A program made the translations under genes and the position numbers. This document shows, in pieces, positions 5,479 to 23,591 of a stretch of DNA of 64,000 nt. Source of the DNA: Ardenticatenales bacterium (GTDB lineage Bacteria; Chloroflexota; Anaerolineae; Epilineales; Epilineaceae); NCBI GenBank assembly GCA_020853525.1, contig JADYYS010000046.1, positions 62,001 through 126,000 of the forward strand. Direction: 5' to 3'. How positions within the stretch are numbered: position 1 is the stretch's first letter; each line of letters opens with the position of its first letter. The notes under the pieces were generated by a model, which made no database searches, was not told the DNA's origin, and saw only the letters and a program-made list of their open reading frames with translations.

Positions 5479-6684
5479 TTACGGACACGACGTAGCAGGT
5501 ACTGGACAGTTGGTCCAAGTTGGCAGGTGGAGGTTCAATTGCGTGATCAGCTTGCCCGGATGTGGCGGCCGTGGCTGCGCGCTGGAATCCGGATCTGGCG
5601 GCACAGTGACGATGTCCGAGTAATACGTACAGACACCATTCGTAAATTCGACGAAGTAGCACTTGCTGGCAGAGGCATAGAAACCAAAAGAGCCGTTCGC
5701 CTTCAGCTGCATGCTGTTTTCAGGCTGCGCCTTTGGGTCTGGCGTCACCACTGTCGCCGAACCCACCTGAGAAGTCGTATGCCACTGCCAATCTCCCGAG
5801 TGGTTGTCCACCGAATAGCATGCTCCCGACGGCTGCGCAGCGCCATTCGTATTCGTGACTCCTTCAGTCCATCCCTGCACTTCTCTAAGGGTCACGGTCT
5901 GCCCCTGGTATGTGCCGTTCCTGCAAGTCGGCGTGCCTTCAACCACCAACGGCTGGTCGATGATGCCGCTGGGATCGCCAAGCTGGAGGATTTGTCCCAT
6001 GTAGCAGCCCATGTAGGCGACGAGCATGCCGTTGTTTGAATCCCGCTGTCGTTCCTGGCCGGTGCTCGTAAGGCACGTTCGCCGGATGCCCAGTGCCATC
6101 CATGCGCCCGTAGTGCACAGTTCCTTGAGGTCGAGCATCTCGTGCGGATCGTCACCGAAGATGACCTCATAATCACTCCCGTTCAGAACCATCAGTTCCG
6201 GATAGGGTATTTTGGTCGCCGGTCTGATATTGAGTTCTACGCGTGCAAGCGTCTCTGTCGACAGGCACTTGCCCTCCGCCTGCGCCCTCGTCACGCGAAT
6301 CGTGATCGGACTGATCGTCTGCACCGTGCCTGTCAGGGCCGGGGCCGCCGATGGCGGCGGGGGCGTCTCAATCGCACCTCCCGCTGTCGTCGGCGGTGCA
6401 CCGACCGCGCCATCCTCCTGATCGACGAAGAACTTGACCTCTACGACTCCATCCCCGAGATCGGTGATTGCCCCGCCGTTGCCGAAGATGAACTGCACGA
6501 TGCCCTTGTCGCCCGGCTCAGGGCTTGGACTGTCCTCCGACGTCACGGCTTGGTCCACCTGTGCCGGTGCCGCCACCGGAGCCCATTGCCTGCACAGAAG
6601 AATCCCTCCCAGGACCAACAGAACTGCGAAGAATGCTGCGGCGATGGCGCACATGATCGAGGGCGCGGACCGTCTGTCAGTCAT
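5479..6684 (-). CDS. membrane-anchored extracytoplasmic protein, 401 aa
   Basis: ATG at 6684 is preceded by AGGAG 7 nt upstream and overlaps the end of the NACHT-FGE gene, so the two are translationally coupled. Residues about 10-32 form a transmembrane helix (MCAIAAAFFAVLLVLGGILLC), which suggests an N-terminal anchor or uncleaved signal with the rest outside. A Pro-rich linker (about 105-125) separates a short N-terminal part from a Cys-containing C-terminal region with several Cys pairs (CMGC-like spacing around YMGCYMG) and beta-rich composition. No known domain is recognised. Codon use and base composition are lower in GC than the flanks. Linkage to an NTPase with a sensor-like C-terminus suggests a surface partner, but this is inference. 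Confidence 0.7.
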   Translation of the reverse strand: MTDRRSAPSIMCAIAAAFFAVLLVLGGILLCRQWAPVAAPAQVDQAVTSEDSPSPEPGDKGIVQFIFGNGGAITDLGDGVVEVKFFVDQEDGAVGAPPTTAGGAIETPPPPSAAPALTGTVQTISPITIRVTRAQAEGKCLSTETLARVELNIRPATKIPYPELMVLNGSDYEVIFGDDPHEMLDLKELCTTGAWMALGIRRTCLTSTGQERQRDSNNGMLVAYMGCYMGQILQLGDPSGIIDQPLVVEGTPTCRNGTYQGQTVTLREVQGWTEGVTNTNGAAQPSGACYSVDNHSGDWQWHTTSQVGSATVVTPDPKAQPENSMQLKANGSFGFYASASKCYFVEFTNGVCTYYSDIVTVPPDPDSSAQPRPPHPGKLITQLNLHLPTWTNCPVPATSCP

Positions 6685-9600
6685 GGTGAAGCTCCTGCTT
6701 GGTTGATCGTGTAGCAAGCCGAAAGCCGCCGTCGCGCGCGTAGATGGCGGCATGAACACCGAAACGACAAGTCGTCCTGGCCTCCCGAAGGCCGTACATC
6801 CAGCTCCCACCTCGTCGGACTCGCTGCGCGCACTTGTCTGACGAACAGTCGTGATGCGCGGAGTACGGGTAGGCGATATAAGCGGACGAGGTCCATTCGC
6901 CGACGTTGCCCGCTAGGTCGAGAATGCCGCATGGCGTGTCGCTGTTTGGGAACACGCCGACCGGTGCCAACCCTCGTAGGTGCGCCTCCACCGTATTACA
7001 CATCCCATCGCGTGCCGACCCCGGAAACGGAAACGCACGAGCGGCGAAGCCGCGAGCCGCCGCTTCCCACTGGACTTCCGTCGGCAGCGCAAATCGATCG
7101 CCGGACTGATGCGCAAGCCAGTGGGCGTAGGCGGCGGCCTCGTACCAGCTGATTCCGACGATCGGTAGCGATCTTCGGCTGGCCAAGCTGTCGCCGGAGA
7201 ATCGTGGCCCGCTGAATCGGACGTCCGGGTGCAGTCCGTGAAGGTAAGTAGGTAGCTCACTTGGGGGAATCTTGAGCTGCATACTCCACCGATCGTGGAG
7301 CTTGGCATCCATCATTCCGCGACGGTATTGCTCTTCGAGGAGATCGGGCTGTCGCCGGTACTGTTCGAGCACATCTTGGATGTTGTACCGGATACCTTCC
7401 GCGGTCCCCTCCCCCCGCCTCCACGCCGCCGCCGCCTCGGTATCCCACCACCGCTCATCCTCATACCCCCCCGCCTCCATGAACAACGCATACTCCGCCC
7501 GCGTCACCGGGAACTGCGCGATCTTGAACGCATCGAGCGTCACCTGGTGCTCCGGCGCCTCCTCCGGGTAGATGCTCCCGTCGCTCCCGATCGTGTACGT
7601 GCCGGCCGGGATCTCGATGAACGGCGGCAGGAGGTAGGCGTGCCCCTCCGGCCCGATGCCCCGGGTGAACCGCGGATCGCCCAGCTCGCCGAGGGCGAGG
7701 CCGGCGGCGATGCGGACGCGAAGGTCCACCTCCGGGTTGCGGGACGTTTCGACGAGGCGCCAGCGGAGGGACTCCTTGACGACCTCCGAGACGCCGCACG
7801 CTGCCTGCGCCGCCGCGCGGCCGGCCAGCACCGGGTTGCGCTCCGCCAGGTCCGGGATCAGGACGTCCGGCGTGCGCGTCAGGACGGCGGCCATCAGCGC
7901 CGTCTGGTCCCACACCGTGCCCGGCGGCGGCGGCAGCGGGTCGGCGATCGCAAGGCCACTGAGCGTCTCGTCGAGGCGCGGTTGGATCGCGTCGGCGCGG
8001 ATGGCCACGCGGACGCGATCGACATCGGGCGCGGCGGCGAACAGGCGCGCCGCGAAGTACTCCTGGATCAGCTGGTGGTGGAAGAGCACCTCCTCGCCCG
8101 ACCCGTCCTCATCCAGCACGCCGAGGTCGATTCCCGCCCGCAGCACCGTGTCGGCGGATGGGAGCACGTGCGGGTCCAGCAGCGCCCGTGCCTGCTCGTA
8201 TCCGACGCGCACGTGTGCCCCCTCGACCCCGCCGCGGCCGGCCTGCATCCCATAGGCCAGGCGGGCGAGCGACGGGATGAGTCGGCCCTCGTCCGGCAGG
8301 GCGTGCGGGTTGGCCCAGGCGCGCCCCTGGACGATCCGACGGCGGTCCCGCTCCGTCAGCAGGTCGTTCGATTGGAAGCGCACGTTCTCGCTCATCACCT
8401 CGCGGTGCAGCGCCGCCCGGACCAGCGACGTGAACAGCGTCACCGGGTCGGCGCTCGGGTCGCCGCCGCCCTCGATGTGGTGGATGAGCAGGCGCAGCAG
8501 GAACGGCGTCCGGAACAGGTCGCGCCGCCCGCCCACCGCCAGACCGTCGTCGATCACCGCGGCCAGCTGCGGGTTGTACTTCCGGACGAACTCGGCCAGC
8601 TGCTCGTCGTCGAGCGGCTGGATCTCGAGCTGCGGGACGCGAAGCGTCGGCGTCGAGAGCTGTGCGCTGTAGTCCAGACGGCGGCAGGCCACGAGGGCGC
8701 GGTTGCCGGGCCGGCCGGCGATCGTCGCGTGCAGATAGGTCTTCCACACCCCGATCCGCTCGCGGTTGTCGGCGTCCGAGGTGTGCGGCATCTCGTTGAG
8801 GCCGTCGAGCAGCAGGAGCACGCGGCCGTCGGCCAGCAGATCGTCCAGCGACGGCAACAGCGGGTAGCGGCGCGACCAGCGGTCGGCGAGCCACACCGCC
8901 GGCGGGGGCGGGATGGCGCCGAGTGCGTCGGCGCGGTAGTCGGACAGCGGCGCATAGAACGGCACGCGCCCGGCATCCGCCGGCGCCTCCAGTGCCGCGG
9001 CCGCCGCCTTCAGCTCGAGGTGGCGCAGCAGCGTGCTCTTCCCGCTGCCGGGCGCGCCGAGCAGCACGAGCACCGGGTCGGCGGTCCGATCGAGCGCCTT
9101 GACCAGGTCAGGGTAGCGCTCGACCTCGGCCCGCCAGCGCCCGTCGGCGGCCTCCTCGCCCTGGTCCAACAGCAAGGTCAGCTCGACGCAGCGGAAGAAC
9201 AACGCGTCGGGCGCGTCGGACCACGCCAGCACCCGGCTGGCCTGGTAGTCGATGAGGTCGACGATCGGCGCGTCCGCGCGCACCCCTTCGGCCGGCGGCA
9301 GCTGCGCCAGCGCTGCGAGGCCGTCGCGCCGAACGGTCTCCACCACCCAGCGCCGCAGCGACATCTGGTCGCCGAGCACGGGCAGCGGCACGGCGCGCTT
9401 GGCCTCCTCGGCCAGCGCCACGCGCTCGTGGAAGATCAGGCGTTCGGCGATCAGCTGGCAGCCGTCGTCGCCGCGGCGGTGGATCGTGCGCTTGGAGTAC
9501 GCGCTGATCGTCTGGATGTCGATGGACGGCATCCGCGACGGGCAGACCCAGCGATGGTAGACCACGCTCCACGCCTCGCGCTCGCCGTCGCGGGCGGTGA

Positions 9601-9877
9601 AGTCCGCCTGCAGCCCGGCGATGACCGTCTCGATCGGCTGCGGACCGTCGGGTACGTCGGTGCCGCGGTGGCCGGACAGGTTGCGCAGGACCAAGTCGCG
9701 CAGCACCGCCGCCAGCGTGCGGCCGACATCGCCGGTGCTGCCCGCCAGCGGATCCTGGGCGCGCCGTTGTCGGACAACGGCCAAGCGGCACAACGGGTGT
9801 TCCGCCAGCGCACGCGGATTGTCGAGGCGGCGCAGCGCCTGTTCGACGAGCTGTGGCGTGATGACGGCTTCGGTCAT
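6677..9877 (-). CDS. NACHT-family NTPase fused to C-terminal FGE/SUMF1-fold domain, 1066 aa
   Basis: Residues 1-260 are a helical N-terminal region with an HTH-like stretch near 120-150 (IQTISAYSKRTIHRRG). A P-loop NTPase follows: Walker A GAPGSGKST at 274-282 and Walker B LLLLDGLNEM at 354-363, the latter typical of NACHT/STAND proteins. A helical region to about 750 precedes an FGE/sulfatase-modifying-factor fold (753-1056) marked by IPAGTYTIGSDG, PVTRAEYALFM, LPTEVQWEAAARG, DLAGNVGEWTSS, RRGGSWMYG and DGGFRLAT. The two cysteines that make true formylglycine-generating enzymes catalytic are not at the expected places after RRGGSW, so the domain probably binds ligand. The start (ATG 9877) lacks a clear ribosome binding site, and the frame stays open to 10375, so the N-terminus is uncertain. 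Such NTPases act as conditional switches in defence or cell death. Confidence 0.85.
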   Translation of the reverse strand: MTEAVITPQLVEQALRRLDNPRALAEHPLCRLAVVRQRRAQDPLAGSTGDVGRTLAAVLRDLVLRNLSGHRGTDVPDGPQPIETVIAGLQADFTARDGEREAWSVVYHRWVCPSRMPSIDIQTISAYSKRTIHRRGDDGCQLIAERLIFHERVALAEEAKRAVPLPVLGDQMSLRRWVVETVRRDGLAALAQLPPAEGVRADAPIVDLIDYQASRVLAWSDAPDALFFRCVELTLLLDQGEEAADGRWRAEVERYPDLVKALDRTADPVLVLLGAPGSGKSTLLRHLELKAAAAALEAPADAGRVPFYAPLSDYRADALGAIPPPPAVWLADRWSRRYPLLPSLDDLLADGRVLLLLDGLNEMPHTSDADNRERIGVWKTYLHATIAGRPGNRALVACRRLDYSAQLSTPTLRVPQLEIQPLDDEQLAEFVRKYNPQLAAVIDDGLAVGGRRDLFRTPFLLRLLIHHIEGGGDPSADPVTLFTSLVRAALHREVMSENVRFQSNDLLTERDRRRIVQGRAWANPHALPDEGRLIPSLARLAYGMQAGRGGVEGAHVRVGYEQARALLDPHVLPSADTVLRAGIDLGVLDEDGSGEEVLFHHQLIQEYFAARLFAAAPDVDRVRVAIRADAIQPRLDETLSGLAIADPLPPPPGTVWDQTALMAAVLTRTPDVLIPDLAERNPVLAGRAAAQAACGVSEVVKESLRWRLVETSRNPEVDLRVRIAAGLALGELGDPRFTRGIGPEGHAYLLPPFIEIPAGTYTIGSDGSIYPEEAPEHQVTLDAFKIAQFPVTRAEYALFMEAGGYEDERWWDTEAAAAWRRGEGTAEGIRYNIQDVLEQYRRQPDLLEEQYRRGMMDAKLHDRWSMQLKIPPSELPTYLHGLHPDVRFSGPRFSGDSLASRRSLPIVGISWYEAAAYAHWLAHQSGDRFALPTEVQWEAAARGFAARAFPFPGSARDGMCNTVEAHLRGLAPVGVFPNSDTPCGILDLAGNVGEWTSSAYIAYPYSAHHDCSSDKCAQRVRRGGSWMYGLREARTTCRFGVHAAIYARDGGFRLATRSTKQELHHD

Positions 9878-9963
9878 TTCGGTCGGCAGCTCGTGCGTCG
9901 GGACGCGTGGCGGGGGGACCCGGTGTGGCGGGTCACGATGCAGTGGGAATGGAAGGGGTGGGA

Positions 9964-10008
9964 ACGGAAGCTGCGGGAGCGGAAGCTGCGGGAGCGGAAG
10001 CTGCGCCG
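9964..10008. repeat. 15-nt tandem repeat
   Basis: Three units of GCGGAAGCTGCGGGA (first and last imperfect) lie upstream of the chosen NACHT start. If translation began further upstream they would encode a Leu-Pro repeat (QLPLPQLPLP), which looks unlike a folded protein and supports the downstream start. The surrounding 9878-10523 stretch otherwise contains only a candidate promoter. Confidence 0.6.
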
Positions 10009-10009
10009 C

Positions 10010-10039
10010 AGTAAACACTGTTTCCGGCAGGAAAAGCAA
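10010..10039 (-). promoter_or_regulatory. candidate promoter for the NACHT-FGE operon
   Basis: On the minus strand TTGCTT (10039-10034) and TTTACT (10015-10010) are separated by 18 nt, resembling -35 and -10 boxes of a housekeeping sigma factor. It would give a leader of about 130 nt to ATG 9877. The match is moderate and sequence alone cannot confirm it. Confidence 0.25.
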
Positions 10040-10523
10040 ATGATCGAGGTGCCGACCGGAGGCGGTTGGGACGACGTGCGGCATCGCCGATCGCCCACGG
10101 CGCGGCGACGGTGTGGGCCGGCGGCGCGCGACCGGATCGGTCGCGGCCGGAAGGAGCACCGTCGTCGCGCCGTGGACGGCCGAAATGCTGAGAGAACCGG
10201 ACTCCTGCGCGTACGCAATCAAGGACTCGGACGATGGCGCACGCCGGTTCGTCGGCGTGTGCCCAACACATGCTGGTCGATCGCATTGCTCTGACTGTGA
10301 ATGCAGCCGAACCTCTCGAACGGCGCGCACGATGCGTGATGGGCGCACGGGAGCGACCTGCCGAAGATGGCCCATCGATCCTCCCCTCGCTCCATGCCGC
10401 CCGGATCGGCGCCCGCGCCCGCGCTCGATTGCGCGGTGGTGCCATTGTCCGGTTACGGCGGGGGCGATGGAAGGGGTGCAGGGGTCACAAAGGGGTCACG
10501 TCGGGGCCGCCATGGCGCCGCGC

Positions 10524-11357
10524 TCAGCCGCGCTCCACCGTCGGTTCGTACGCCGCCAGCCGCCGCGCCATCACGTCGACGGCGTCGGGGTTGTTGTCCA
10601 CGAGCACGAAGTCACACCCGTGCTTGGCCGCCGCTTCGCCGAGCGTGCCGCTGCCGGCAAAGAAGTCGAGACAGACATCGCCCGGTCGGCTGTGCACCTT
10701 CACGATCCGCTCCAGGATCGCCAGCGGCTTCTGCGTGGCGTAGCCCGTCTTCTCGCGCCCGTTCGTGCTGACGATCGTCTGCCACCACACGTCGGTGGGC
10801 GTCTTGCCGCGCGCCGCCTTCTCGGGACCGACCATGCCGGGGGCCAGATAGGGGATGCGGTCCATGCGCCCGTAGTCGAACGTATAGGCTTCGGGATCCA
10901 TCACGTACCACAGGATGTTGTCGTGCTTGGCCGGCCAGCGGCGCTTGGAGCGCGCGCCGTAGTCGTAGGCCCAGATGATCTCGTTCATGAAGCATTCGCG
11001 CGTGAACAGGGCGTCCATCAGCACTTTGGCGTAGTGGACCTCGCGGCAGTCCATGTGCAGGAAGAAGCTGCCCGTCGGCTTCAGCACGCGCCGACCTTCC
11101 TTCAAGCGCGGTGCGATGAAGCCCGGGAAATCTTCGAAGCGGTCGTCGTAGCCGCTCACGCCGAGCGACTCCGTGCGATAGCGCCGGCCCTGGAAGCCGG
11201 TTCGGTCGCCGCCGTCGTCGTCCCGCACCGTGCGCAGGCGCGTTCGGGTCTGGCGGTGGCCCGTGTTGAACGGCGGGTCGATGTAGATCAGGTCGACGGA
11301 CGCGCTCGGCAGCGTCGCCAGCACCGCCAGGTTGTCGCCCAGGATGATCCGCCCCAT
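10524..11357 (-). CDS. orphan site-specific DNA methyltransferase (N6-A/N4-C, beta-type), 277 aa
   Basis: The protein belongs to the N6/N4 amino-methyltransferase family. The catalytic motif IV (DPPF, residues 27-30) comes first and the AdoMet-binding motif (DFFAGSGTLGEAA, about 233-245) comes last, the circular order of beta-class enzymes. A central variable stretch (about 35-60, Arg/Asp/Gly-rich) and the region around WAYDYGARSKRRWPAKH should carry target recognition. No restriction endonuclease gene is near, so it is either an orphan regulatory methyltransferase or a marker for the neighbouring NACHT locus. Start ATG 11357 has no strong ribosome binding site, but MGRIILGDNL is the typical N-terminus of the family. 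Confidence 0.9.
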   Translation of the reverse strand: MGRIILGDNLAVLATLPSASVDLIYIDPPFNTGHRQTRTRLRTVRDDDGGDRTGFQGRRYRTESLGVSGYDDRFEDFPGFIAPRLKEGRRVLKPTGSFFLHMDCREVHYAKVLMDALFTRECFMNEIIWAYDYGARSKRRWPAKHDNILWYVMDPEAYTFDYGRMDRIPYLAPGMVGPEKAARGKTPTDVWWQTIVSTNGREKTGYATQKPLAILERIVKVHSRPGDVCLDFFAGSGTLGEAAAKHGCDFVLVDNNPDAVDVMARRLAAYEPTVERG

Positions 11358-13184: not shown

Positions 13185-13227
13185 CGAGAAGCACTGTGAA
13201 TCGATCGGCGAATCACAGTGCTTCTCG
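13185..13227 (+). terminator. 15-bp perfect hairpin after the secreted repeat-protein gene
   Basis: CGAGAAGCACTGTGA (13185-13199) pairs perfectly with 13213-13227 around a 13-nt loop, and is followed by TTT. It sits 32 nt after the stop of the upstream gene and could terminate its transcript. Its right arm is also the first unit of the direct repeat array that follows, so the hairpin may instead be an inverted operator. Confidence 0.45.
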
Positions 13228-13292: not shown

Positions 13293-13382
13293 GACCCGAT
13301 GCACGATGGATCGCCGGCCGCCGTCGAGGCGATCGCCCCGTCGGCGCTTGACCTGCCTCCCCCGCTGATCGACGATCTCCCC

Positions 13383-14258
13383 ATGTGGCCCGCCCGACCT
13401 CTGCCCCACGTCCCCGTCCCCGGCGAGTCCGCCGCCGCGTTGTGGCGCTTCGAGCCCGGCCTCATGCTCGTCCTCGCCGCGGCCGCGCTTGCCTACGCCG
13501 TCGCCCTCGCCGCGGCGCGCCGGCGCGGCCGTCCGTCCCACGGACCGTGGCGCGCGGTCGCCTTTTTCGGTGGGCTGGCGGCCGTGACGACGGCGCTGGC
13601 CGGACCGCTGGATGCGTACAACGACGAGAGCTTCCTCGTCCACATGCTCCAGCACTTGGTGCTCATGCAGCTGGCGGCGCCCCTGCTCGTGCTCGGGCGG
13701 CCGGTCCATCTGATCGTCCAGGCGCTGCCGCCGCGCCGCCTCGTCGGGGTGCTCCGGGCGACGGTCGGGCACCGCTGGCTGCGCCGGACACTCGATGTCG
13801 TGTGTCATCCGGTGACCGTCGCCGTGCTCTGGAACGTCAGCCTCGGCCTGTGGCACGTGCCGCGGTTCTACGAGGCCGCGCTGGCCGACCCGCTGATCCA
13901 CGACCTCGAGCACGCCCTGTTCTTCGCGCCGTCGCTGTTGTTCTGGTGGATCGTCATCGACCCGCTGCCGGCGCACCACCGGGCGTCGCCCCACGCGGCG
14001 TTCGGCATGGCGTTCGCCAACTGCATGGGCGGCGGGCTCGTGGCGGCGGCGCTGTTGTTCAGCCCACGCGTGCTCTACCCCACCTACCTCGCCGCCGAAG
14101 CCGCCGGCCGGCCGTGGGGCCTTGATCCCTTGGCCGACCAGCGGCTCGGCGGCGTCGTCATGTGGCTGACCGGCGCGCTCTTCTTCGGGACGATGTTCCG
14201 CGCCATCTGGCCGAGCCGCCGAACAGTGCCGGCGCTCGTCGTCGGCACCGGCGGCTGA
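13383..14258 (+). CDS. ctaG: CtaG/caa3-type cytochrome oxidase assembly factor, 291 aa
   Basis: A multi-pass membrane protein (about seven hydrophobic segments) with features of the CtaG_Caa3 family: WRFEPGLML near the N-terminus, FLVHMLQHLVLMQLAAPLLVLG in the second membrane region, WNVSLGLWHVPRFYEAAL, and HDLEHALFFAPSLLFWWIVIDP. The His residues in HMLQH, HVP and DLEH are the family's likely copper ligands. Family members help deliver copper to heme-copper oxidases, which fits the oxidase operon converging from the other strand 18 nt away. ATG 13383 gives the usual family length; ATG 13299 would add 28 residues of non-conserved sequence. Neither start has a clear ribosome binding site. Confidence 0.85.
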   Translation: MWPARPLPHVPVPGESAAALWRFEPGLMLVLAAAALAYAVALAAARRRGRPSHGPWRAVAFFGGLAAVTTALAGPLDAYNDESFLVHMLQHLVLMQLAAPLLVLGRPVHLIVQALPPRRLVGVLRATVGHRWLRRTLDVVCHPVTVAVLWNVSLGLWHVPRFYEAALADPLIHDLEHALFFAPSLLFWWIVIDPLPAHHRASPHAAFGMAFANCMGGGLVAAALLFSPRVLYPTYLAAEAAGRPWGLDPLADQRLGGVVMWLTGALFFGTMFRAIWPSRRTVPALVVGTGG

Positions 14259-14276: not shown

Positions 14277-15995
14277 TCACCGAATCCCCCACTGGATCGA
14301 ACTGAACTCGTACCACGACACGGCGTAGAGCACGACGAAGAGCGCCAGCCACGTCATCGCCAGCGTCATCGTGCCGGGCGCCTCGAAGCCGCGGCCCACG
14401 TGGGGCGCCGCCGGGGCGGGCGGGGCGAACGCGCCGGCGTCCACGTGGCCGATGTTCGGGACGTCGTTCCGCTTCCCGAGGAACACCGTGCCGGCGGCGA
14501 TGATCACGTACATCGTCCCGCCGATGATCGCGATCGTCGCGCCCAGAGCCGTGATCGCCAGCGCCATCTGGATGCGCGGGCCGTCGAACGTGCCGGCGGC
14601 GAACGGGTAGGCGGACAGGCTGATGTCCCAGTGGCGGCGCGGGACGCCCCAGTGGCCGGCCAGGCCCATCGCGATGCCGAAGATCAGCATGCCGGTCGTG
14701 AAGATGTAGGGCTGCACCTTGGCCCAGCCGGGCAGGAAGAGGTCGCGCCGTGTGATCAGCGGCACGAGGTAGTAGCTGATCCCCATGAACGCCAGGGTCG
14801 TGCCGGCGACGACGGTCATGTGGAAGTGGGCCGGGACGATCAGCGTGTTGTGGGCGATCAGGTTCAGCTGGATGCCGCCCATGATCACGCCGCTGATCCC
14901 GCCCAGGATGCCGAACATCGCAAACGAGAGCGCGAACGCGCTGAAGCCCGGCGAGCCCCACGGCGCATTGCGCAGCCAGGCGAACAGGCTGCCGGTGTGG
15001 CCTTTTTCACGCTGGGCGACCTCGACGGAGGCCGGAATCGTGAACGCGTGGATCATGCTGCCCATGACGGCGGCGTAGAGGAAGTAGCTGGTGTTGATGC
15101 CGCGCGCCCAGTGGCTCAGGCCCGGGTCGACGAGGATGTGGTGCATCGACCCCATTTGAATGAAGAGCACGTACAGCAGGAACGCCAGCCGGCTCAGCCC
15201 CTCGTTGATCGGCCGCGCGCCGACCATCAGGCTCGCCAGGCCGTACCAGATCGCCACCATCGCCGCCAGGTTCACCTGTTGCGCGCCGTGGCCGAAGCCC
15301 CAGAACAGCAGGCGGTAGACGCCCGGATCCGCCGTCTCGATCACGCCGAGGCGCGCGAGCCAGGCCGGGATGAGCGCCGCGGTGCCGCTGGCCAGCGTGA
15401 ACAGCGCCAGGATGGCGGCCACGACGAGGCCGAACGTGAACAGCGGCAGCGTGCGGATCCGGCCGGTGATCCGGGCGCGCGTGATCTGGACGAGGAAGTG
15501 GATCACCGCGATGAGCGCCCCGACGGCGAACACGAGGATGAACAGGTAGAACCAGTGGCTCGCCTCGAGCGGCGGGTAGGCCGTGAACATCACGGTGGCG
15601 TATCCCGAGAGCACGACGACCGCCGCCGCGACGGACCCGAAGAGCATCATGCCGTACGCCAGCCAGCCGACCTTGGGGGCGACCATCGGCTGGTTCAGCA
15701 GGATCGTGCCGCCGAAGATCAGCCCGGCGACCTCGAAGAACAGGATCCAGAACACCAGCATCGCCGCGCCGTGGGCGCTGACGAGGCGGTAGAACCATTC
15801 CGGGCTGCTGATCAGGTGCACCGCCGGCCAGCGCGTGAGCGCGATGAGGAGCGCCATCACGCCGCCCGTCGCCAGCCAGAGCACCGCGGTCACCGCGTTG
15901 ACGATGATCAGCCGCTCGGACGAGCGGTCCACGAAGAGGCCGGTCACCCCGCAGGTGCGGCCGACGGCATTTCGAAGCGCGCCACTGAGTGCCAT
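14277..15995 (-). CDS. heme-copper oxidase superfamily subunit I lacking the active-site tyrosine, 572 aa
   Basis: A polytopic membrane protein of the heme-copper oxidase superfamily, closest in style to type B (ba3-like) enzymes. Visible ligands are H75 (SAHGAAM, low-spin heme), H236 (GFGHGAQQVN, metal B), the H285-H286 pair (MHHILVDP) and H390/H392 (PAHFHMTVV). Oxygen reductases have Tyr four residues after the first metal-B histidine (HPEVY); here that position is Gln240 (HGAQQ). Loss of the cross-linked Tyr is a hallmark of nitric oxide reductase groups in this superfamily, so reduction of NO is as likely as of O2. ATG 15995 is chosen because CGGAGA lies 8 nt upstream. It follows the subunit II gene by 17 nt. 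Confidence 0.88.
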   Translation of the reverse strand: MALSGALRNAVGRTCGVTGLFVDRSSERLIIVNAVTAVLWLATGGVMALLIALTRWPAVHLISSPEWFYRLVSAHGAAMLVFWILFFEVAGLIFGGTILLNQPMVAPKVGWLAYGMMLFGSVAAAVVVLSGYATVMFTAYPPLEASHWFYLFILVFAVGALIAVIHFLVQITRARITGRIRTLPLFTFGLVVAAILALFTLASGTAALIPAWLARLGVIETADPGVYRLLFWGFGHGAQQVNLAAMVAIWYGLASLMVGARPINEGLSRLAFLLYVLFIQMGSMHHILVDPGLSHWARGINTSYFLYAAVMGSMIHAFTIPASVEVAQREKGHTGSLFAWLRNAPWGSPGFSAFALSFAMFGILGGISGVIMGGIQLNLIAHNTLIVPAHFHMTVVAGTTLAFMGISYYLVPLITRRDLFLPGWAKVQPYIFTTGMLIFGIAMGLAGHWGVPRRHWDISLSAYPFAAGTFDGPRIQMALAITALGATIAIIGGTMYVIIAAGTVFLGKRNDVPNIGHVDAGAFAPPAPAAPHVGRGFEAPGTMTLAMTWLALFVVLYAVSWYEFSSIQWGIR

Positions 15996-16012
15996 GTTCG
16001 TCTCCGGGTGCG

Positions 16013-16555
16013 TCACGGCACGACGGCGATCTGGCCGACCATCAGGTGGTGGCCGATGCCGCAGTACTCGTTGCAGACGATCGTGTATTCGCCGTCCTGC
16101 TTGGGCGTCAGCGTGATCGCGCTGACGTAGCCCGGCAGGACCTGGAAGTTGATGTTGTCCGGCTGGATCGAGAGGCCGTGCTGGACGTCGCTGGACGACA
16201 GGAGCAGCCGGTAGGTCTCGCCCTTCTTCAGGCGCAGCGCCGGTGTGAACTGGAAGCGCTCACCGAGCAGGTAGACGTCACCCGGCGGCGGGGCCACGAG
16301 CGGGCGGCCCTCGAGCTCGCCGACCTGGTGCGCGGCGATCGAGGCGTCGACCGCAGCCTTGAACGTGGCCGTATCGGTGCGATAGGACGAGAACGTCAGC
16401 TGCTGGTCGCCGATCGCCGGCCAGATGACGAAGATCATCAGGAACATCGCCAGCGCCCAGACGAGAACGACCATGAACCACAACCGTTCGTCGCGGCCCA
16501 ACGGCGACCACCACCGGGCGCCGGGTGCGACGAGCGTGCTCGATCGCTCGATCAT
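16013..16555 (-). CDS. CuA-type oxidase subunit II, 180 aa
   Basis: One N-terminal membrane helix (about residues 26-48) anchors a cupredoxin domain on the outer face. The binuclear CuA ligands are all present: H126 (DVQHGLSI), then C161, E163, C165, H169 and M172 in CNEYCGIGHHLM. It should take electrons from a soluble donor and pass them to subunit I, showing that the neighbouring tyrosine-less subunit I is fed through CuA rather than by a NorC-type cytochrome. ATG 16555 has GGAGAG about 9 nt upstream. It is the second gene of a three-gene minus-strand operon. Confidence 0.92.
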   Translation of the reverse strand: MIERSSTLVAPGARWWSPLGRDERLWFMVVLVWALAMFLMIFVIWPAIGDQQLTFSSYRTDTATFKAAVDASIAAHQVGELEGRPLVAPPPGDVYLLGERFQFTPALRLKKGETYRLLLSSSDVQHGLSIQPDNINFQVLPGYVSAITLTPKQDGEYTIVCNEYCGIGHHLMVGQIAVVP

Positions 16556-16694
16556 CGAATGCTCTCCAGTTGTCGGGGTGGATGCGGGCATGGCATGGGC
16601 CGTCGGGTTGCGTCGAAACGGCGCAACAGCCATCGTCGGCGCGGGCCGGATGACGCCGTGCGCGACGCCGTCCGACGGGCCTTCGGTGACGGGC

Positions 16695-16859
16695 CTACGG
16701 TTTGAACAGCGGCAGGCTGGCCAGCTCGATGAGACCCCAGACGATGTAGAACAGCGTCGGGACCACCAGTCCGAACATCGTCAGGAGGAACACGTCGTAC
16801 AGCACGGCCTGTTGCCAGGGCACGGCGGGCGAGGGCTCCGGCGGGTGTCCGTCGGTCAT
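16695..16859 (-). CDS. small single-helix oxidase-associated protein, 54 aa
   Basis: A Pro-rich N-terminus (MTDGHPPEPSPAVPW) is followed by one transmembrane helix (about residues 23-47, VFLLTMFGLVVPTLFYIVWG) and a short tail. AAGGAG lies 8 nt before ATG 16859. Its position as first gene of the oxidase operon and its topology fit the small extra subunit (IIa-like) found with ba3-type enzymes, though I see no sequence motif that proves it. A possible promoter (TTGTAC and GTTAAC, about 15 nt apart) lies in the 131-nt gap upstream. Confidence 0.75.
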   Translation of the reverse strand: MTDGHPPEPSPAVPWQQAVLYDVFLLTMFGLVVPTLFYIVWGLIELASLPLFKP

Positions 16860-21072: not shown

Positions 21073-21857
21073 CGCCCGGCCGTGTGCGCCGCCGTGCCCC
21101 GCTTGTCCGCGACGAGCTGCCAGCGGAACAGCGGCCACCACCGCAGGCGCGTGCGGTCCATCGGCCAGCCGGCGCGGGCGGCCAGCGCGCGCAGCTCGGC
21201 GCGGCGGAAGCCGCGCAGGACGCTCACCGGGCCGTCGTGCCGGATCATGCGGTTGCGAAAGGCGACGGCCGCGAGGGCGCGGAAGCCCCAGTAGGCCAGC
21301 GGGTGGCGGTGGAGATCGTTCACGACGACGCCGATCTCGGCGAGGGCGTACATCCTGGCGAGCGCCCGGACGGCATCCTCGTCGCGGAAGTGATGTAGGA
21401 CCATCGCGGCGTGTACGACGTCGAACCGGGCGCCGGGGGCGTCGGCGTCGATCGCGAGGAGGTCGGCCTGCACGGCGTTGAGCGACGGATGGGCGGCGCT
21501 GTGGCGCTGGGCGTACGCGACGGTGTGCGCGGCGAGGTCGATCGCCGTGACGTGCAGCACGGTGCCCCGCGCGGCGCAGGCCTCGATCAGGCGCCGCGGG
21601 GTGTCGGCGGCGCCGGTGCCGACGTCGAGCAGGCGGGCGGTCCGAGGGAGGACGGATGGATGGGGTGCCGCCAACCCGAGCAACCCAAGCACCCCCGCCA
21701 CGCTCGGCGCATACCCCCCGAGCAGCCGGTTGATCCGGGTCAGCTGCCGGAGCGCCGCCTCGAGCTCCGGCCCGCCGATGGACGGATCGTCCATCCACTC
21801 GTCGGCCGAGCTGCGGCAGGCGAAGCGGCCGGGGCGGAGGGCCGTCGGCGCCTTCAC
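21069..21857 (-). CDS. class I SAM-dependent methyltransferase, 262 aa
   Basis: AdoMet-binding motif I is RLLDVGTGAADTPRRL (about residues 75-90), with an acidic post-I strand (VTAIDLAAHTV) and motif IV-like FDVVHAAMVLHHF, where the LHHF signature is common in small-molecule methyltransferases. The GTG start at 21857 overlaps the stop of the polyketide synthase gene by 4 nt and the end overlaps the FAD gene by 4 nt, so the three are translated as a unit. It corresponds in position to SrsB, which methylates phenolic lipids. The C-terminus WRWWPLFRWQLVADKRG-like region is basic and may contact a membrane lipid. Confidence 0.85.
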   Translation of the reverse strand: MKAPTALRPGRFACRSSADEWMDDPSIGGPELEAALRQLTRINRLLGGYAPSVAGVLGLLGLAAPHPSVLPRTARLLDVGTGAADTPRRLIEACAARGTVLHVTAIDLAAHTVAYAQRHSAAHPSLNAVQADLLAIDADAPGARFDVVHAAMVLHHFRDEDAVRALARMYALAEIGVVVNDLHRHPLAYWGFRALAAVAFRNRMIRHDGPVSVLRGFRRAELRALAARAGWPMDRTRLRWWPLFRWQLVADKRGTAAHTAGR

Positions 21858-23149
21858 GTCGTGGCGCGCAGCACCGCGCCCTCGAGGCTGAGCCCGGGGC
21901 CGAAGCCGAGGGCGACGATGTCGCGGCCGACGCTGTCGCGGCCGACGCTGTCGCCGCCGACGGACCCGCGGCGAACCGGGGCGACGACCCCGTCGCGTTC
22001 GGCAGGCGAGCCGTCGCCTTCGGCCGCACCGCCGGTGCGCAGCCGATCGAGCTCGCGTTGCAGGACGAAGAAGATCGTCGCGCTGGACATGTTGCCGTAG
22101 TCCCGCAGCACGCCGTAGGCCGAGGCCAGGTCGGGCTCGTCGAGCTCGAGCGCCCGGCCGATGCCCTCGACGATCCGGCGGCCGCCCGGGTGGATCGCCC
22201 AGCCGGCGACGCGGTCGGGGCCGGTCCGGCCGCGGTCGAGGAGCGAACGGACGAACGGGTGGATCGCGCGGGCGAGCGTGTTCGGGACGGCGTCGGTCAA
22301 CGTCATGACGAAGCCGTGGTCGCCGATCCGCCAGCCCATCTGGTCGAGGCTGTCGTCGTGGACGGCGCTGCACGTGCCGAGGAGCGATGCATGCCCGCCC
22401 GGCCGCGCGCCGTCGGCCGCCCAGACGGCGGCGGACGCGCCGTCGGCGAACAGGCAGTTGGCGACGAGGGTTTCCGACGTGTCGTCGCGCTGGAAGTGCA
22501 GGCTGCAGAGCTCGACGCAGACCTGGAGGACGACGGCGTCCGCGTTCGAACGGACGATGTCGTCGGCCGTGCGGAGGCCGTTGAAGGCGGCATTGCAGCC
22601 CATGAAGCCGATGACCGTCCGCGCGACGGTCGGCTGCAAGCCGAGGCGGCGCAGGAGAAGCACGTCCGGGCCTGGCGAGAAGAACCCCGTGCACGTGCTG
22701 ATGACTAGGTGCGTCACGTCGCCGGGAGCGATCGACGCATCGGCCAGGGCACGCCGTGCGGCCTCGGCGCCGAGATCGACGCTGGCCTCGCGGAAGACGA
22801 CCATCCGCTCGGCCGTCGTCGGAAACGGATCGAGCGCCCAGTTGGCCGGAAAGAACGCGAACGCGGTCGGGTCGTCGCACGTGTAGTCGGCCAGGACGCT
22901 GTGGCGGCGGGCGATGCCGCTCTCGGCGTACAGGCGGCGGATCAGGCGGGCGCTGCGGGGGGGGCGGCCGCCGTTTGCTGCGCCGGTGACATCACCCGAC
23001 GATTCGCCGTCTTCCGCCGCGCCACGGCGCCGCTCCGCCGCGGCGGCGACGACGCGGGCCATGAACGCGCCGACGTCGGCCTGCGCGGCGCTGTGCGGGG
23101 GCGTGGCGGTGCCGAGGCCGTACAGCCGTGTGGTTACCCCCGTGCCCAT
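21854..23149 (-). CDS. type III polyketide synthase (chalcone/stilbene synthase family), 431 aa
   Basis: The catalytic triad of the thiolase-fold type III synthases is visible: C185 (GFMGCNAAFNGLR), H320 (WAIHPGGRRIVEG) and N353 (RDYGNMSSATIFF). The length is slightly above the usual 350-400 because of an Ala/Gly/Arg-rich insertion at about residues 37-68 and an Arg/Gly/Asp-rich tail. It should extend an acyl-CoA or acyl-ACP starter with malonyl-CoA to alkylpyrone or alkylresorcinol. ATG 23149 was chosen as the first residue of MGTGVTTRLYGLG; the upstream frame overlaps a palindrome. It is first in a three-gene cassette. Confidence 0.9.
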   Translation of the reverse strand: MGTGVTTRLYGLGTATPPHSAAQADVGAFMARVVAAAAERRRGAAEDGESSGDVTGAANGGRPPRSARLIRRLYAESGIARRHSVLADYTCDDPTAFAFFPANWALDPFPTTAERMVVFREASVDLGAEAARRALADASIAPGDVTHLVISTCTGFFSPGPDVLLLRRLGLQPTVARTVIGFMGCNAAFNGLRTADDIVRSNADAVVLQVCVELCSLHFQRDDTSETLVANCLFADGASAAVWAADGARPGGHASLLGTCSAVHDDSLDQMGWRIGDHGFVMTLTDAVPNTLARAIHPFVRSLLDRGRTGPDRVAGWAIHPGGRRIVEGIGRALELDEPDLASAYGVLRDYGNMSSATIFFVLQRELDRLRTGGAAEGDGSPAERDGVVAPVRRGSVGGDSVGRDSVGRDIVALGFGPGLSLEGAVLRATT

Positions 23150-23176
23150 CGGCCGTCCCCGCTCCCGGTTGTGTTG

Positions 23177-23242
23177 GGGCACGGCATGCCGTGCCCTCCG
23201 ACGATTTGCGTGATCCGTACGAGGGCACGGCATGCCGTGCCC
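23177..23242. repeat. two copies of a 20-nt perfect palindrome
   Basis: GGGCACGGCATGCCGTGCCC occurs at 23177-23196 and 23223-23242, with flanks (GTTGGGG and CCCCTAC) making the pair a larger inverted repeat. It belongs to the same style of GTAGGGGC-type palindromes seen at 1305, 26210 and 36286, with a different centre. It lies just upstream of the polyketide synthase start. Confidence 0.7.
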
Positions 23243-23250
23243 CTACACGG

Positions 23251-23538
23251 CGTCCGGGCGATGGCGCGGCGCAGGTCGTCGTCGGGCGTCCGGGCGACGG
23301 CGCGGCGCAGGACGTCGTCGGGCGTCCGGGCGATGGCGCGGCGCAGGACGTCGTCGGGCGTCCGGGCGATGGCGCGGCGCAGGACGTCGTCGGGCGTGTG
23401 GGTGATGGCGCGGCGCAGGTCGTCGTCGGGCGTCCAGGCGATGGCGCGGCGCAGGTCGTCGTCGGGCGTGTGGGTGATGGCGCGGCGCAGGTCGTCGTCG
23501 GGCGTCCGGGTGATGGCACGGCGCGGGTCGTCGTCGGG
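23251..23538. repeat. 36-bp minisatellite, eight full copies plus a partial ninth
   Basis: Eight units of 36 bp starting CGTCCGGGCGATGGCGCGGC follow each other without gaps; variant positions are mainly CCGGG/TGTGG, GAT/GAC and GGTCG/GGACG. The unit length is a multiple of three, so several frames stay open across it, but no frame has a start site or joins a known domain: the HerA-like gene stops at 23592 in another frame. I treat it as a non-coding tandem repeat between the HerA-like gene and the polyketide synthase gene. Confidence 0.8.
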
Positions 23539-23591
23539 CGTCCAAGCGGTGGCGCACGGAGCGGAAGCGTCGGGTGCGGTGGCGATGGCCG

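Follow-up and report, generated by a model that had tools for sequence, protein, structure and literature searches.

Genes of the operon

The window (the whole stretch of DNA that was analysed, 64,000 nt) carries three minus-strand genes in series between positions 14277 and 16859, met by a plus-strand gene for a copper assembly protein:

16695..16859, minus strand: 54-residue single-helix peptide, first in the operon, before subunit II
16013..16555, minus strand: subunit II with a CuA site; its reading frame is open from 16633, and the start MIERSST is placed by comparison with relatives
14277..15995, minus strand: subunit I, a heme-copper protein of predicted eNOR type; 572 aa when started at the ATG at 15995
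13299..14258, plus strand: CtaG-type copper assembly protein (PF09678, Caa3_CtaG, 208 bits); its reading frame opens at 13218, with a putative start at 13299

The reading frame of subunit I opens with a GTG at 16016, and homologs favor the ATG at codon 8 (15995) as the start; residue numbers used here are those of the GTG-started frame. Its product matches the Pfam COX1 model (PF00115, 202 bits) and subunit I of the Thermus thermophilus ba3 oxidase (phmmer 1e-42). Subunit II matches Pfam COX2 (PF00116) and, by profile, ba3 subunit II. It lies directly upstream of subunit I, with a gap of 17 nt if the ATG start is assumed, and such a CuA subunit II is found next to subunit I at 85 of 86 family loci. 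The CuA site, which a sequence-only reading had called complete, has all of its ligands (H, C-x3-C-x3-H, M), and these are unchanged in 8 aligned relatives. Eight aligned relatives have a conserved counterpart of the 54-residue peptide in this position, and a lenient search found it at 73/86 family loci; it is possibly a small third subunit. The CtaG-type gene is convergent with subunit I, their frames ending at 14258 and 14277 with 18 nt between them, exactly as that reading had it. Of the 86 loci, only the five Thermomicrobium-like ones have CtaG beside the operon; the other 81 lack it there. The CtaG proteins of Thermomicrobium roseum and HRbin28 (L015:1237-2598 and L028:3210-4604) bear a C-terminal cupredoxin domain related to eNOR subunit II. 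Upstream of the operon, no FNR/NnrR-type box was found.

Active site and family placement

Subunit I retains the low-spin heme ligands H82 and H399, the high-spin heme ligand H397 and the CuB ligands H243, H292 and H293; the residues previously numbered H75, H236, Q240, H285/H286 and H390/H392 correspond to 82, 243, 247, 292/293 and 397/399, and all are present. Gln247 occupies the position of the cross-linked tyrosine, helix VI reading HGAQQVN where oxygen reductases have HPxVYFW. Species genomes were scanned with a seed alignment that joined the window protein to those of Thermomicrobium, Defluviimonas and Thermus. The scan gave at least 80 loci from many phyla, and these were combined with plasmid and phylum matches in a family alignment of 105 proteins, with 19 B-family oxygen reductases alongside. 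Ten residues are invariant in 105/105 members: E95, H243, Q246, Q247, N249, H292, H293, H323, H389 and H397. H243 and the HH292/293 pair are common to both groups, whereas these oxygen reductases lack E95, Q246, Q247, N249 and H323: in them position 95 is I/L/A/T, 246 is V, 247 is Y (19/19), 249 is W and 323 is T. The substitution of glutamine for tyrosine in HGAQQ, already remarked from the sequence, is thus no sequencing accident, and with conservation in every member a chance Gln at 247 is ruled out; open frames and conserved ligands likewise rule out a pseudogene or frameshift. The combination of E95, QQ-x-N and H323 provides a simple annotation test for separating eNORs from oxygen reductases. 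In two Thermus members, encoded on Thermus thermophilus plasmids (L017, L018), the low-spin heme ligand His399 is replaced by Lys (HFK vs HFH); the window protein keeps the His.

The AlphaFold model of subunit I (42 sequences; pLDDT 87, pTM 0.89) has as its nearest solved structures the B-family oxidases 7deg and 1xme, and profile comparison selects the same ones. With the ba3 enzyme of T. thermophilus (1xme; see also 7deg) the window protein shares the fold, the CuA subunit, the heme and CuB ligands and the equivalents of Y248, S309 and subunit II E15. It differs in that ba3 Y237 is replaced by Q, the preceding V by Q, the W at +6 of the CuB His by N, Y244 by V/I and T312 by H. Within the K-path, Y258 and S320 (equivalent to ba3 Y248 and S309) are invariant in the family, T326 (ba3 T315) is T or S in most members, and subunit II E23 aligns by profile match with ba3 E15; the replaced Y244 equivalent is V/I in the family (V in the window) and that of T312 is H. 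By residue comparison, a K-type proton path from the cytoplasm looks largely retained, so the enzyme may conserve energy. One proton channel has been predicted for eNOR (PMC8756737).

A tyrosine supplied from another helix was sought at both known cross-link positions. The ba3-type position in helix VI is Gln in 105/105 members, with no Tyr. For helix VII the reference was the cbb3 oxidase of the own genome, which has its Tyr 6 residues before the HH pair; the window protein, unlike C-family oxygen reductases, lacks this Tyr and has I286 there, and L or I occurs in all 105 members. As far as the alignment goes, the enzyme is without Tyr at either known cross-link position, and the check for a compensating residue proposed with the original reading came out in its favor across the family. 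The conserved tyrosines that the family does possess are at positions 282, 311, 314 and 234. Y282, conserved in 104/105 members and replaced by Phe in 17/19 oxygen reductases, lies on helix VII and could be taken as a substitute redox residue, as could H323 on helix VIII, in which case the protein would be a true oxygen reductase. The ba3 fold, CuA subunit, CtaG partner and seemingly retained K-like path are all oxidase features, and C-family oxidases illustrate that the Tyr can be relocated to helix VII. However, Y282 precedes the HH pair by 10 residues, as against 6 for the cbb3 Tyr, and so sits roughly one helical turn farther away from the metals; the cbb3 position itself is Ile or Leu throughout the family, and NO reduction has been reported for relatives (PMC11388526, PMC8879329). 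We consider an oxygen reductase of this kind improbable.

The tree comprised 31 members of the family, 15 B-family oxygen reductases (T. thermophilus ba3 among them), 3 A-family enzymes and 6 outliers. The family forms one group (98/98) and the oxygen reductases a separate one (100/99). In this phylogeny, which the sequence-only reading had called for, the window protein, with HGAQQ in place of the HPxVY motif, groups with Gln-bearing relatives and stands apart from proven oxygen reductases. It pairs with a 72% identical protein from a genome of its own family, followed by Thermomicrobium roseum and close relatives. Assignment to eNOR is based on published residue criteria and on groups named in the literature rather than on a joint tree with reference eNORs (Rhodothermus marinus, Natronomonas), and by these the window protein is probably an eNOR. 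The eNOR family is defined by Gln at the Tyr position together with a cupredoxin subunit II (PMC8756737). Its alphaproteobacterial ba3-a1 members, which are without the catalytic Tyr, were described as a clade sister to the true B oxidases (PMC6431628) and renamed eNOR after reported NO reductase activity with cytochrome c (PMC8879329); among NO reductases with kinship to the B-family oxidases, eNOR is now counted as biochemically characterised (PMC11388526). A caution is that weak NO reduction is also seen in ordinary ba3 and caa3 oxidases (PMC8780969). The window operon resembles eNOR, ba3-a1 included, in its Gln for Tyr, full heme/CuB His set, upstream CuA subunit II, apparent K-type path and denitrification context, and differs in belonging to a Thermomicrobium-like sub-branch with CtaG beside the operon and an own genome without recognisable nir. 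It is an additional member, in a Thermomicrobium-like lineage, of an already known family.

Other NO reductases of the superfamily differ at the same position. The cNOR and qNOR enzymes, which share the expected function of NO reduction, have Glu in place of the Tyr, no CuA and a c-heme or quinol donor, as opposed to Gln and CuA in the window. The bNOR (CuANOR), sNOR and gNOR groups are B-family-derived and have a cupredoxin-type subunit II; published residues set them apart, with Asn in bNOR (CuANOR) and sNOR and Asp in gNOR. An assignment to one of these CuA groups, to nNOR or to an unnamed group beside eNOR could draw on their common B-family derivation, some having CuA (PMC11388526), and on a tree that omits their references. 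In Table A4 of PMC8756737, however, sNOR and CuANOR are listed with N, gNOR with D, cNOR/qNOR with E, and eNOR alone with Q, which leaves such an assignment less probable still than an oxygen reductase. In a search for sNOR, gNOR and bNOR references on plasmids, the weaker matches inspected all carried oxidase annotations, with no NOR annotation among them.

Divergent COX1-like proteins also came to light. Downstream of 11 of the 80 eNOR loci listed lies a second one of about 450-500 aa (L031:7771-9255, L032:2321-3691, L035:7704-9212, L041:9972-11414 and seven more loci), in which the heme His and the first CuB His are kept (GGGHxLQ) and the CuB HH pair is lost; the five placed in the tree form a clade of their own (100/100), and the three scanned have no NCBIfam match. 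Genome G002 encodes another (L013:927-2633, minus strand), 31% identical to the window's protein and on a long branch, with Tyr in place of the heme-a3 His (AYVH) and YH in place of the HH pair.

Genomic context and physiological role

Genes of denitrification recur around the family. Strong NirS matches (E<1e-60) lie within 6 kb at 6/86 family loci, and in genome G090 a NirK gene (360 bits, cut-off 296) is directly upstream of subunit II with a heme O synthase downstream of subunit I, an arrangement similar to one reported in Ardenticatena, where NirK and eNOR genes share an operon (PMC4653789). Thermus plasmids carry genes for an Rrf2 regulator and a DUF542/ScdA_N (Ric-like) protein after the operon, and in one record (TF24) nirS is also close by. 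Unlike proteobacterial eNOR operons, the window operon has no adjacent CyoE, SCO or cytochrome b. Proteobacterial operons often contain a fusion of cytochrome b with 4Fe-4S and FlpD-like domains (e.g. L016:11435-13012), matched at 65/86 loci, which is possibly an electron-input module.

In a phylum survey of 301 genomes (20 carriers, 281 non-carriers), nir/nos genes, i.e. nirK, nirS or nosZ, occur in 18/20 carriers and 39/281 non-carriers (Fisher p 1e-12, a value inflated by kinship, which the test ignores). Carriers span 9 families, in 8 of which a carrier with nir or nos is found. Only 4/21 phylum genomes whose sole B-family enzyme is the Tyr-type have nir/nos, and an enrichment limited to carriers of the Gln-type enzyme again speaks against an oxygen reductase. 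This context supports NO as the substrate. Together with the tree and the residues, it favors the reading first made from sequence of a CuA-fed NO reductase, for which the evidence points to eNOR as the family.

Besides the window enzyme, the heme-copper proteins of the own genome comprise an oxidase of the A family, a cbb3 oxidase and a single odd COX1-like protein, and none of them is recognisable as a NOR. A 452-aa COX1-like protein (L004:1363-2718, minus strand; own genome C24:37339-38526) matches PF00115 with 97 bits, apparently lacks the first CuB His and has only weak, cbb3-like NCBIfam matches. The genome encodes a full Sec-type NosZ (820 bits, cut-off 625). It has no NirS, no NarG and no NirK over the cut-off (best partial match 72 bits), so by known genes the organism is no nitrite-to-NO denitrifier. 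Most simply, the enzyme would turn NO that comes from outside, or from sources not recognised, into N2O, and NosZ would carry this on to N2. The missing nitrite reductase, and the Lys that Thermus members carry for a low-spin heme His, might instead suggest that the main role is another one, for example just to scavenge or sense NO, or to act on a different substrate; with all catalytic ligands of the window protein intact and NosZ in the genome, we regard this as the least likely of the alternatives considered.

Proposed mechanism and wider observations

The genes at 14277-16859 on the minus strand thus very likely encode a CuA-fed eNOR-family NO reductase, for which CtaG is the probable assembly factor. 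Electrons would enter the CuA site of subunit II from a periplasmic donor, presumably cytochrome c or a cupredoxin, and pass through the low-spin heme (H82/H399) to the heme/CuB center (H397; H243, H292, H293), where two NO would be converted to N2O and water, the B metal being taken as copper. A cross-linked, redox-active Tyr would be unneeded because NO reduction splits no O-O bond in one four-electron step, and Gln247 with the co-conserved H323 may stand in for the Tyr and Thr of oxygen reductases. The K-type path would remain open from the cytoplasm for proton uptake, making energy conservation possible, while the enzyme would supply N2O to NosZ and clear external NO. A more specific proposal, which we put forward as speculative and rather unlikely as a whole, is that the paired and invariant Gln247 and H323 near the active site, in place of Tyr and Thr and with the K-type path open, create an electrogenic NO-reduction center with its own proton donor, serving respiration on external NO rather than nitrite denitrification in a Nir-less, NosZ-bearing lineage.

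Annotation pipelines would label this operon a cytochrome c oxidase, and its recognition as a NO reductase would be a useful correction. NCBIfam has no model for the subunit I family, only oxidase models matching, far under their cut-offs, and the public records of such operons that we fetched are named cbb3- or ba3-type oxidases. With eNOR operons annotated in this way, surveys overlook the turnover of NO and N2O. The operon also adds a Thermomicrobium-like lineage combining eNOR and NosZ with no recognisable nitrite reductase, which would be a consumer of both NO and N2O.

Elsewhere in the window, a 36-bp tandem repeat of 8.5 copies (23249-23589) lies just outside a gene for a chalcone-synthase-like type III polyketide synthase (21854-23233, minus strand). 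At 6677-11357, a minus-strand gene for a NACHT-type ATPase with an FGE-sulfatase domain adjoins one for an N6/N4 DNA methylase on the same strand.
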